A DNA stretch of 36,299 nucleotides from Microtetraspora niveoalba (lineage in GTDB: Bacteria > Actinomycetota > Actinomycetes > Streptosporangiales > Streptosporangiaceae). Every line of letters starts with the position of its first letter. Position 1 is the stretch's first letter. A program made the translations under genes and the position numbers. Below the pieces are notes generated by a model. The model did not search any database, was not told the DNA's origin, and saw only the letters and a program-made list of their open reading frames with translations. The DNA lies in NCBI RefSeq assembly GCF_001570405.1, contig NZ_BBYM01000010.1, positions 201,362 through 237,660 on the forward strand, written 5' to 3'. Below, in pieces: positions 31,870 to 34,265 of the stretch.

Positions 31870-32060
31870 GTTCTTTAACTCCTGAGAATCGGACGCCGGC
31901 TGTCGCCCGCGTCGGAGAGCCCGAACCCGGCAAATCGCGGAAAGTGTAGCGATCTGCCTTGAACATCGCGTATCGCCGCGTAGGCAACCAGGCTGCAAGC
32001 GATGGTCAAGTGAGCATCCCTATCCCTGTGACGTATGAAGCAGGCGAAAGGTTTGTACAT

Positions 32061-32564
32061 ATGGCGCGAAATGTGCTTCTCGTGGGCGCCGCCGCCGGGC
32101 TCGTCCTCCTCATCGGCGGCGTTTACGGCATGAGCTCCCTCTCCACCATGTCCTGGGGCGTACCGGTCTTCGTGATCGGCCTGTTCCTGCTGATCATCGG
32201 GGTGACGGCGTTCGCCGCCAGGATCGCCGGAGGTCACGGGCCCTCCACCGGCGTCGTGGGGCGGATGAAGGACTTCATGGGCACCGGCAACCAGGAGCTG
32301 ATCGGCGCCGGCGTCCCCTCCAGGGCCCTGATCACCGCGATGCGGGACACGGGGACGATGGTGAACGACCAGGTGGTCGTCGCGTTCGACCTCCGGGTCC
32401 AGCCCGCCGGCGGCCCGCCGTACGCGGTGAGCCACCGCCAGATCCTGCCGCGCCTCCTGATGGGTGCCGTCCTTCCCGGCAGAACCGTCCAGGTCTGGGC
32501 CGATCCGGTGAACCCGCGACGCCTGGCCATCGACTGGTCGGCCCTCCCGGCCCAGAGTCCCTGA
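32061..32564 (+). CDS. Small membrane protein, DUF3592-like
   Basis: This 167-residue protein has two adjacent hydrophobic helices (NVLLVGAAAGLVLLIGGVYGM and VPVFVIGLFLLIIGVTAFAA) and then a soluble C-terminal domain. The domain ends with PGRTVQVWADPVNPRRLAIDW, in the style of DUF3592-type proteins that end VxYDPxxPxRa. Its function is not known. I chose the ATG at 32061, with GAAAGG nine bases upstream; an ATG 34 codons upstream (31959) would add a hydrophilic stretch and has no better ribosome site. It is divergent from the LCP pair, with a 191-base shared region, and is followed by the TrpRS attenuator region. Confidence 0.7.
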   Translation: MARNVLLVGAAAGLVLLIGGVYGMSSLSTMSWGVPVFVIGLFLLIIGVTAFAARIAGGHGPSTGVVGRMKDFMGTGNQELIGAGVPSRALITAMRDTGTMVNDQVVVAFDLRVQPAGGPPYAVSHRQILPRLLMGAVLPGRTVQVWADPVNPRRLAIDWSALPAQSP

Positions 32565-32636
32565 GATGCGTACGGCGGCGCCGCACCGGATCCTCATTGT
32601 GCAGGCGGCATGGTGTTGCCGCTGAGAAAGCGGAAG

Positions 32637-32642
32637 TATGCT
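32637..32642 (+). promoter_or_regulatory. -10 element for the trpS leader transcript
   Basis: TATGCT at 32637-32642 resembles a -10 element and ends six bases before the leader-peptide ATG. The transcript could start almost at the ATG. A partial GTGTTG at 32613-32618 is a weak -35 at 18 bases spacing. The call is tentative. Confidence 0.35.
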
Positions 32643-32648
32643 TCCCTC

Positions 32649-32690
32649 ATGCGTCTTTCGTCGTGTCTGAGCTGGTGGCGCTCCTCGTAG
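32649..32690 (+). CDS. Leader peptide with tandem Trp codons, upstream of trpS
   Basis: A 13-codon reading frame, MRLSSCLSWWRSS, ends in TAG at 32688-32690. Trp codons 9 and 10 (32673-32678) lie just before a hairpin whose left arm begins at 32679. Slow translation of the two Trp codons would hold the ribosome over that arm. The peptide is the sensor of a trp-type attenuator. It is too short for ordinary gene finding; its evidence is the Trp pair, the hairpins and the gene it precedes. Confidence 0.8.
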   Translation: MRLSSCLSWWRSS

Positions 32691-32695
32691 GAGCG
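32679..32695 (+). promoter_or_regulatory. Hairpin 1:2 of the trpS attenuator
   Basis: CGCTCCT (32679-32685) pairs with AGGAGCG (32689-32695) across a CGT loop, enclosing the leader stop codon. The right arm extends into GCGGCC (32693-32698), which can also pair with GGCCGT (32718-32723) of the terminator. This pairing gives the alternative antiterminator. Confidence 0.7.
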
Positions 32696-32716
32696 GCCGC
32701 TTTCACGCACGACCCC

Positions 32717-32742
32717 GGGCCGTTCGGATGGACGGCCCTTTT
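32717..32742 (+). terminator. Intrinsic terminator (attenuator) ahead of trpS
   Basis: GGGCCGTTC (32717-32725) pairs with GGACGGCCC (32730-32738), one G-T wobble included, over a four-base loop. TTTT at 32739-32742 follows. A real T-run is uncommon in actinomycete terminators, which strengthens the case. It lies 26 bases after the leader stop and 65 bases before the trpS ATG. Confidence 0.8.
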
Positions 32743-32807
32743 CCATGCTCTCCCCTCGTCGGGGCCTCCTCCGGATGGCGAAACAGCCACTCACCAGGAG
32801 AAATCCC

Positions 32808-34265
32808 ATGACGACCGCTTCCACATCCACTCCTGCCGGCGACGACGGCATGCCCGCACGCGCCTCCCGACCGTCCGCGGAAGTCCCCGCCGCCGCACCA
32901 CCCGTGCCCGTACCGCCGCCGGCCTCGCTTGTACCGGCTGGTCCCGTATCGCCGGCTGAACCGCCACTGGCCGCGTTTGTACCGGCCTCGCTTGTACCGC
33001 CGGCTGTCCCCTCACTGGCCGCGTTCGTGCCGGCCGGTCCCGTACCGCCGGTGGCCGCACCGGCCGCGACTGTACGGCCCGCCTCTGCGCCGGGCGTCGT
33101 GATCCGGCCGCCCGCAGCCGTACCGCCCGGCCCCGGCGAGATCGAGACGCGCACGGCCTCGCCCGCCGACCCGGCGACGCGGACGCCGGGGAGCGAGGGG
33201 GCCGTGGGGTCTTCCGGAACGGCCGCCGCCCAGCGACGCAGCGCAGAGTTGGAGGAGCTCATCCTGCGCGATCCCGGGCGGTTCCGCGTGCTCACCGGGG
33301 ATCGGCCCACGGGACGGCTGCATCTGGGGCACTACTTCGGCACCCTCCACAACCGCGTCCGGCTCCAGGAACTCGGGGTGGAGACCTTCCTGATCATCGC
33401 CGACTACCAGGTCCTGACCGACCGGGACGTCGCCGACCGGCTGACCGAACGCGTTGAGGACCTCGTCCTCGACTACCTCGCCGCGGGCATCGATCCCGAG
33501 CGGACCACGATCTTCGCGCACAGCGCCGTCCCGGCGCTCAACCAGTTGTTGCTGCCGTTCCTCAGCCTGGTCTCGGTCTCCGAGCTGAGCCGCAACCCCA
33601 CCGTCAAGGACGAGATAGCGCAGTCCCGGCAGTCCGCCGTAAGCGGCCTGATGTTCACCTATCCCGCACACCAGGCGGCCGACATCCTGTTCTGCAAGGC
33701 CAACCTGGTTCCGGTCGGCCAGGACCAGCTCCCTCACCTGGAGCTCACCCGCACCGTCGCGCGCCGCTTCAACGACCGGTACGGCAGAGCCGAGGCTCCG
33801 GTGTTCCCGGAGCCCGACGCCCTGCTGTCCGCCGCGCCGTTGCTGCTGGGCACCGACGGGGCCAAGATGAGCAAGAGCCGGGGCAACGCCATCAGCCTGG
33901 CCGCCACCGCCGACGAGACCGCCCGGCTCATCCGGGGCGCGAAGACCGACGCTGACCGGCACATCTCCTACGACCCGGTGGCCCGGCCCGAAGTGTCCAG
34001 TCTCGTCCTGCTGGCGGCGTTGTGTCTCGGCCGCGATCCGCACGAGGTGGCGGGGGAGATCGGCGGCAAGGGCGCTGCGGCGCTCAAGGCGACCGTCACC
34101 GAGGCGGTCAACGAGCACCTCGCCCCGCTCCGCGAGCGCCGCGCCCGCTACGCCGCCGAACTGGGCTACCTACGGCGGATCCTGCGCGACGGCAACGCGG
34201 TCGCCAATGCCGTCGCCGAAACCACCCTCGACGAGGTACGGGCCGCGATGAAGACCCTTTATTGA
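32808..34265 (+). CDS. trpS: Tryptophanyl-tRNA synthetase with long Pro/Ala-rich N-terminal extension
   Basis: This 485-residue class I synthetase charges tRNA-Trp. The catalytic core fills about residues 155-485, with HLGH (172-175, HIGH motif) in TGDRPTGRLHLGHYFGTL and KMSKS (353-357) in GTDGAKMSKSRGN. Residues 1-150 form a low-complexity Pro/Ala/Val extension with near-repeats (LAAFVPASLVPP, LAAFVPAGPVPP). At the position of H43 in the Bacillus enzyme (DQHAIT), it has Q201 (DYQVLT). The core resembles, as I recall it, the auxiliary indolmycin-resistant TrpRS of S. coelicolor. The ATG at 32808 has AGGAG seven bases upstream. The gene sits behind a Trp-codon attenuator, so Trp-tRNA shortage should induce it. 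Confidence 0.95.
   Translation: MTTASTSTPAGDDGMPARASRPSAEVPAAAPPVPVPPPASLVPAGPVSPAEPPLAAFVPASLVPPAVPSLAAFVPAGPVPPVAAPAATVRPASAPGVVIRPPAAVPPGPGEIETRTASPADPATRTPGSEGAVGSSGTAAAQRRSAELEELILRDPGRFRVLTGDRPTGRLHLGHYFGTLHNRVRLQELGVETFLIIADYQVLTDRDVADRLTERVEDLVLDYLAAGIDPERTTIFAHSAVPALNQLLLPFLSLVSVSELSRNPTVKDEIAQSRQSAVSGLMFTYPAHQAADILFCKANLVPVGQDQLPHLELTRTVARRFNDRYGRAEAPVFPEPDALLSAAPLLLGTDGAKMSKSRGNAISLAATADETARLIRGAKTDADRHISYDPVARPEVSSLVLLAALCLGRDPHEVAGEIGGKGAAALKATVTEAVNEHLAPLRERRARYAAELGYLRRILRDGNAVANAVAETTLDEVRAAMKTLY

Follow-up and report, generated by a model that had tools for sequence, protein, structure and literature searches.

The trpS gene in the stretch of Microtetraspora niveoalba DNA analysed here (36,299 nucleotides, referred to as the window) is in all likelihood controlled by a ribosome-mediated transcription attenuator of the Escherichia coli trp type, which would govern an auxiliary tryptophanyl-tRNA synthetase (TrpRS) of class A. 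Judging from its leader, trpS is very probably switched on when charged tRNA-Trp runs short. The hallmarks of ribosome-mediated attenuation are found together: a short open reading frame (ORF) with Trp codons, a mutually exclusive and conserved antiterminator/terminator pair, and a 1:2 hairpin that depends on the position of the ribosome. The features are as follows, with counts referring to an alignment of 76 sequences:

32637–32642, plus strand: predicted −10 box TATGCT, 6 nt 5′ of the leader start codon (sequence)
32649–32690, plus strand: leader ORF of 13 codons, MRLSSCLSWWRSS, with stop codon UAG at 32688–32690; predicted leaderless (sequence, aligned relatives)
32660–32666, plus strand: 5′ strand of the outer helix P1, within the leader ORF (minimum free energy (MFE) fold of the window, RNAalifold consensus for the inner five pairs, pair counts)
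32673–32678, plus strand: tandem Trp codons TGG TGG, the putative sensor; TGG at the first codon in 74/76 and at the second in 76/76
32679–32684, plus strand: left arm of P2 (the 1:2 hairpin), region 1; 99.1% of cells paired, two pairs changed on both sides
32690–32695, plus strand: right arm of P2, region 2; its first base is overlapped by the stop codon (32688–32690)
32691–32698, plus strand: 5′ strand of the antiterminator, GAGCGGCC; 98.7% of cells paired, seven compensatory cells at two pairs
32707–32713, plus strand: 3′ strand of P1, in the linker before the terminator (window MFE, RNAalifold, linker swap, pair counts)
32717–32742, plus strand: intrinsic terminator, a 9-bp hairpin (32717–32725/32730–32738) plus TTTT (sequence, covariation)
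32718–32725, plus strand: 3′ strand of the antiterminator, GGCCGTTC, common to the left arm of the terminator
32796–32800, plus strand: Shine–Dalgarno-like AGGAG of trpS (sequence)
32808–34265, plus strand: trpS, auxiliary class A tryptophan–tRNA ligase (TIGR00233, 235.8 bits, cut-off 176.75)

Much of this layout had been outlined in a preliminary description of the DNA and lies where it had been placed, namely the 13-codon leader that runs with TGG TGG (32673–32678) into a hairpin, the hairpin itself (CGCTCCT/AGGAGCG, 32679–32695), and the terminator hairpin with TTTT within 32717–32742. The antiterminator described there (GCGGCC, 32693–32698, with GGCCGT, 32718–32723) is likewise present, but it is longer, with 8 bp instead of 6 (32691–32698/32718–32725). 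The −10 box at 32637–32642 and the outer helix 32660–32666/32707–32713 had been overlooked.

The best 80 of 513 confirmed relatives, chosen by the conserved part of TrpRS, served for comparison; the closest named relatives by TrpRS among the matches listed belong to Microtetraspora (88–90% identity; L003, L004, L018). The element accompanies the gene in 75 of these 80 loci, 73 of which have TGGTGG within a short, stop-terminated frame, and two (L042, L057) CGG TGG. The lack of both Trp codons and hairpins in homologues, named beforehand as the observation that would speak against attenuation, concerns the other five (L034, L043, L073, L075 and L080), which keep the gene without the element. 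Together with the window, the 75 relatives form the 76-sequence alignment (A1), in which two leaders possess a single Trp codon. Natural single-Trp forms, in which the first Trp codon has become CGG (Arg) and the remaining attenuator is retained, occur in L042, L057, L102, L214 and L222, some of which possibly represent one genome fetched twice. The second Trp codon is altered in L112 and L115, and two class A leaders (L170, L173) carry three tandem Trp codons and have no TAnnnT box at the usual distance.

A motif consisting of TAnnnT, 5–8 nt and a short ORF starting with ATG or GTG and containing two adjacent Trp codons (WW) gave 73 matches in the target zone, 100–450 nt before the conserved TrpRS part in the loci of the 80 relatives. 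These data bear on an alternative explanation, according to which the hairpin merely ends transcription of the upstream gene (31959–32564) as an ordinary intrinsic terminator, the ORF is due to chance, and the trpS promoter lies inside 32743–32807. A stable terminator hairpin does stand between the two genes, yet the leader ORF, the Trp codons and the antiterminator are found in 75 of the 80 relatives, the antiterminator covaries, and the motif has no match outside the target zone in 1,066,836 strand-bases of the same loci (approximately 533 kb, both strands). In addition, a promoter-like box follows the upstream gene and precedes the hairpins in 76/76 sequences. A plain terminator is considered highly improbable, and attenuation is the preferred reading.

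The position of the promoter-like box also suggests how the leader is translated. All 72 leaders with a standard start have a TAnnnT hexamer that is followed, after 6 nt (59 leaders) or 7 nt (13 leaders), by the start codon; for the non-standard leaders L003, L032, L074 and L076, gaps of 6, 6, 7 and 6 nt were determined by eye, which gives a distance of 6–7 nt in 76/76 sequences. A Shine–Dalgarno-like 4-mer precedes the start in two of the 72 standard leaders. Since the −10 box abuts the leader throughout, the mRNA is predicted to be leaderless, with transcription starting at or next to the A of the leader ATG. According to passages of a transcriptome study of Streptomyces lividans (PMC8079986), the −10 hexamer lies on average 6.3 nt from the transcription start, and RNA-seq identified the comparable leaders trpL2 and trpL1 as being transcribed leaderless. 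By analogy, transcription here would begin at the first leader codon.

The alignment of leaders that had been proposed in the preliminary description reveals compensatory changes in the antiterminator, the 1:2 hairpin and the terminator. Pairing of the antiterminator in 98.7% of cells compares with at most 61.4% in slid registers; A–U is replaced by G–C in 6 of the 76 sequences, and G–C by A–U once (L045). The number of further pair types in this helix does not exceed that in shuffles (4 vs 4.4). The 1:2 hairpin and the terminator (arms GGGCCGTTC, 32717–32725, and GGACGGCCC, 32730–32738; TTTT at 32739–32742) are together paired in 99.3% of cells, and three pairs (eight cells) show compensatory changes, whereas slid registers reach at most 64.8%; the covariation score is 0.066 in the true register and 0.062 in one slid by +3. 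At least three T residues lie within 8 nt 3′ of the hairpin in 73/76 sequences, and at most two in the other three. P2 can extend outward through the Trp codons by pairing of 32675–32678 with 32697–32700 past one bulged G, an extension that is paired in 94.5% of cells and displays no covariation.

The helices are interlinked by region 2 column 72 of the alignment, which is common to the 1:2 hairpin and the antiterminator, and by its antiterminator partner, column 123, which is also used by the terminator. Pair 62–72 is UA in 70, CG in 4 and UG in 2 sequences, with pairing kept; pair 72–123 is AU in 69, GC in 6 and unpaired in 1; and pair 123–133 is UG in 60, UA in 9 and CG in 7. Pairing stays possible in all three helices at the linked columns 62/72/123/133. 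The three-state layout postulated earlier is hence supported: the Trp codons are conserved (74/76 and 76/76), and the changes seen preserve both competing pairings.

At −52.9 kcal/mol, the fold of the RNA 32637–32750 is more stable than every one of 200 shuffles, whose mean is −37.9 (z −4.37). With the alignment as sole input, RNAalifold arrives at three elements, namely the terminator, the outer helix P1 and the 1:2 hairpin together with its extension through the Trp codons. An RNA as strongly structured as this could also sense its ligand directly, either as a T-box for uncharged tRNA-Trp or as a leader bound by a TRAP-like protein, with an incidental ORF; T-boxes and TRAP are used by Trp genes of Firmicutes, as passages of PMC5036795 state. 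However, an Rfam scan of the whole window returned no family at gathering score, and a permissive scan of 32560–32820 gave two matches, mir-56 and Trp_leader (RF00513), the latter with 16.4 bits against a cut-off of 41. Moreover, the in-frame start, the tandem UGG and the stop codon occupy fixed places relative to the hairpins across relatives. Direct sensing thus seems very unlikely, and a translated leader is favored.

Alternative structures, whose calculation had also been suggested beforehand, were obtained by constrained folding with a ribosome footprint assumed from general background. With the ribosome on the first or second Trp codon (W1/W2) and transcription proceeded to 32725–32729, the lowest free energy (−13.7 to −15.3 kcal/mol) belongs to the antiterminator. 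The complete RNA with the ribosome at the stop codon forms the terminator alone, and without a ribosome P1, P2 and the terminator are formed together. The terminator is the more stable helix (−18.0 vs −14.7 kcal/mol for the antiterminator), and the complete RNA prefers it in every folded state, including the W1/W2 stalls. Antitermination must therefore be kinetic, i.e. decided during transcription. In the E. coli trp leader, the choice is likewise made during transcription.

A plausible course of events can be derived from this geometry. The promoter with its −10 box abutting the leader start would give a leaderless transcript, on which the ribosome starts at the 5′ end. When Trp-tRNA is ample, the ribosome would reach UAG at 32688 and cover region 2 (32690–32698), so that the terminator (32717–32738) could form. 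When Trp-tRNA is short, either owing to Trp scarcity or to inhibition of the housekeeping TrpRS, the ribosome would stall on the UGG pair and cover region 1 as well as the 5′ strand of P1; region 2 could then pair with 32718–32725 to give the antiterminator, and trpS would be transcribed. Without a translating ribosome, P1 and P2 may combine into a single extended 1:2 hairpin in which region 2 is trapped, which would render termination the default.

The 5′ strand of P1 is made up of leader codons ahead of the Trp pair. Upon swapping of linkers, leaders combined with their own linker fold at a mean of −13.3 kcal/mol, compared with −10.9 kcal/mol for other linkers; none of 5000 permutations, which ignore relatedness, gave a sum as low, and in 53/76 sequences the native linker ranks among the top five when set against 100 shuffled ones. 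For the window, 26 of the 75 other linkers do as well as or better than its own, and for L023, L074 and L076 this number is 67–70. Five counted pairs of P1 are formed in 94.7% of cells in class A, with a number of pairs changed on both sides that is reached by 112 of 500 shuffles; a register slid by −2 has more two-sided cells (15 vs 10), but fewer paired ones (68.6% vs 94.7%). In class B, a second type of auxiliary TrpRS discussed below, a separate set of 31 sequences displays a 9-bp helix in 98.9% of cells, and five of the nine pairs are changed on both sides, a number that none of 500 shuffles reaches. The class A signal alone is mixed, while that of class B is cleaner.

Three codons ahead of the Trp pair, Cys is kept in 70/76 leaders, for which P1 offers a possible explanation; most class B leaders read have Cys as well. 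Within the helix, TGT and TGC pair through their third base with the same partner G (UG 36, CG 33). In 6 of the 31 class B sequences, A replaces G at the second base of the codon (pair 44–83: G–C 25, A–U 4, unpaired 2), and four of these six (3 Tyr, 1 His) carry U in place of C at the partner position. In addition, L031 has lost Cys, and yet its own linker is matched in pairing with the leader by only one of the 75 others. Alternatively, the attenuator may be real and the Cys residue be selected at the peptide level, for a second function or for Cys sensing. This would be in line with the prevalence of Cys in both classes and with L179 and L197, class B leaders with Tyr at this position that leave the P1 pair broken. 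In view of the compensated codons and of L031, selection on the peptide is regarded as unlikely and judged less likely than P1 pairing.

The product of trpS begins with a low-complexity N-terminal extension of 151 codons (32808–33260), with the conserved part starting at 33261. This extension is rich in Pro, Ala and Val and repeat-like. The Trp codons are separated from the conserved part by 588 nt, compared with 289–347 nt in the Microtetraspora loci L003, L004 and L018; because of this longer spacing, the extension has probably been expanded in the window's TrpRS. Of the solved structures, 1yi8 (tryptophanyl-tRNA synthetase) and 2a4m (TrpRS II) match the class A protein best. This protein is 34–35% identical to housekeeping TrpRS, and a second TrpRS with 34% identity is encoded on contig C8 of the same genome (G000, 8.47 Mb). 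In a tree of 26 proteins, in which long branches are flagged, a branch with 100/100 support divides class A from class B and the housekeeping TrpRS; the grouping of class B (with L135) has weak support (69/6). The window gene falls into class A in this tree and does not group with class B, the bearer of the S. lividans-type leader. The TrpRS of L135 (G016, from the window's family) is 50% identical to the housekeeping enzyme and is preceded by a WW leader of the leaderless type, MRMICCFLSWWRP. The long branch of this TrpRS makes its placement with class B uncertain.

Among 199 Streptomyces genomes, 131 encode class B (E 1e-110 or better) and 36 class A (E 1e-100 or better), with both in 4 and neither in 36. 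Co-occurrence of the two classes is rarer than expected (Fisher p 5.8e-14, relatedness ignored). All 30 class B loci from the best 30 of these 131 genomes (L176–L205), as well as L143, have a leader with at least one Trp codon and a placed −10 box, e.g. MTTRTCTQLWWAA, and the leader in L186 and L196, MMTRTCTQLWRAA, equals the published trpL2 peptide of S. lividans. In the four loci examined out of the 30 (L178, L182, L183 and L187), class B trpS has a 16S rRNA gene as its neighbor and is transcribed away from it; many class B matches are located less than 1 kb from a contig end, as expected beside rRNA operons. The class A loci of Streptomyces carry a WW leader in 24 of 30 cases and RW in two more (L214, L222). 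No leader was found in L208, L213 (345 nt searched upstream), L221 and L225, three of which come from genomes that also have class B.

At least two TrpRS matches occur in 51 of 54 class A genomes, including that of the window. Of the three genomes with one match, no WW leader was found in two (L161, L168), and L167 has a WW leader with unlike hairpins. For this reason, it is suggestive, and not more than that, that the attenuator occurs only where class A is the second TrpRS. The TrpRS of S. coelicolor and S. griseus were reportedly studied by Vecchione and Sello in 2009 and 2010. Indolmycin resistance is named for auxiliary TrpRS in passages of reviews.

A covariance model of the element finds one strong match in its own genome, the present one (E 1.2e-23). 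The next two (E 0.61 and 0.98) were scanned, and no leader with two Trp codons was found in them; a diverged attenuator may precede trpE of this genome. Within the order of the window, class A is present in 46/150 genomes. All 29 loci considered besides the window (L091–L119; 16 weaker matches were left out, and some genomes overlap the set of 80) possess a leader with a placed −10 box and at least one Trp codon, which is single in L102, L112 and L115. Across the class, class A is encoded in 46/394 genomes. Among 24 further loci (L152–L175), for which the leader and not the hairpins was counted, 20 have a short ORF with at least two Trp codons at the right place, 18 of them with a −10 box; L159, L160, L167, L170, L172 and L173 look different. 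A scan upstream of TrpRS gave no leader in L161, L168 and L175. In L155 (G235), the attenuator appears decayed, with the leader ORF and its Trp codons lost and the sequence of region 2 and terminator recognizable, while L131 (G019, approximately 1500–2300) has an intact attenuator ahead of a class A TrpRS gene that is missing coding parts.

The model matches 32/394 genomes at E 0.01 or better. This tally includes chance matches, as a convincing Trp leader ahead of a trp gene is missing from L140, L148, L149 and L151; five further weak matches were left out of this review. Weaker matches with WW leaders precede trpD (L138 and L142, above the TIGR01245 cut-off) and TrpE-like genes (L136, L144, L145 and L146), whose best match is anthranilate synthase component I, all below curated cut-offs. 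L137, L139 and L141 resemble these by eye on comparison of the leaders alone.

Conceivably, though this is a tentative and rather doubtful extension, a single leaderless Trp cassette comprising the abutting −10 box, the tandem UGG, the stop beside region 2 and P1 constitutes a portable module of Actinomycetes, which fronts two distant and mutually replacing auxiliary TrpRS classes as well as trpE-like genes and trpD, and which spread with or between genes rather than having separate origins. The physiological logic of the switch would be to reserve synthesis of a spare TrpRS for a drop in charged Trp-tRNA, be it through Trp shortage or through an inhibitor of the main enzyme. The leaderless start and the outer helix are added as regular parts of actinomycete Trp attenuators, and the reason for the rare sharing of Streptomyces genomes by two distant auxiliary TrpRS classes becomes testable.

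Like the E. coli trp leader (RF00513), the element has tandem UGG codons, 1:2/2:3/3:4 geometry and a stop codon adjoining region 2; unlike it, it is predicted to be leaderless and controls trpS instead of the trp operon. A precedent was seen beforehand in the auxiliary TrpRS gene of S. coelicolor, trpRS1, which Vecchione and Sello are said to have placed under ribosome-mediated attenuation in 2010. An attenuated trpS is indeed known, but the attenuator of trpRS1, which we take to be equivalent to that of trpL2–trpS in S. lividans TK24, would not be a direct counterpart, as S. lividans-type TrpRS appears to be class B and the window gene is class A.

The S. lividans locus itself (SLIV_21112/SLIV_21110), for which RNA-seq in 2021 revealed trpL2 before trpS, shares with the window a leaderless 13-codon Trp leader and hairpins that control trpS, as far as the relevant passages go (PMC8079986). 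They report one Trp codon and no U-tract for trpL2, in contrast to two Trp codons and TTTT here, and peptides identical to that of trpL2 front genes of class B (L186, L196), a class to which the window gene does not belong. A leader of the S. lividans type with an ATGATG start was not found in 295 Streptomyces genomes; the same peptide was found starting with GTGATG. Seliverstov et al. (2005) predicted a classical Trp attenuator before trpS2 of S. avermitilis, likewise an actinobacterial trpS, and described conserved gGCC-rGCy-GGCC triples in the trp-operon attenuators; the passages concerned state neither an outer helix nor a TrpRS class (PMC1262725). In Sinorhizobium meliloti, the start codon of the Trp leader ORF trpL is the 5′ end of the transcript as well, but this alphaproteobacterial leader precedes trpE(G) and yields trans-acting products, according to passages of PMC7298713. 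A literature search, with most subscription journals outside its reach, gave no account of the element in Microtetraspora or of the outer helix. Taken together, Trp attenuators before Streptomyces trpS have already been published (passages of PMC1262725 and PMC8079986) and this kind of switch is known; the element from Microtetraspora is a well-supported new example of it, with a regular leaderless start, the outer helix P1, and a TrpRS class unlike that of the assumed precedent.
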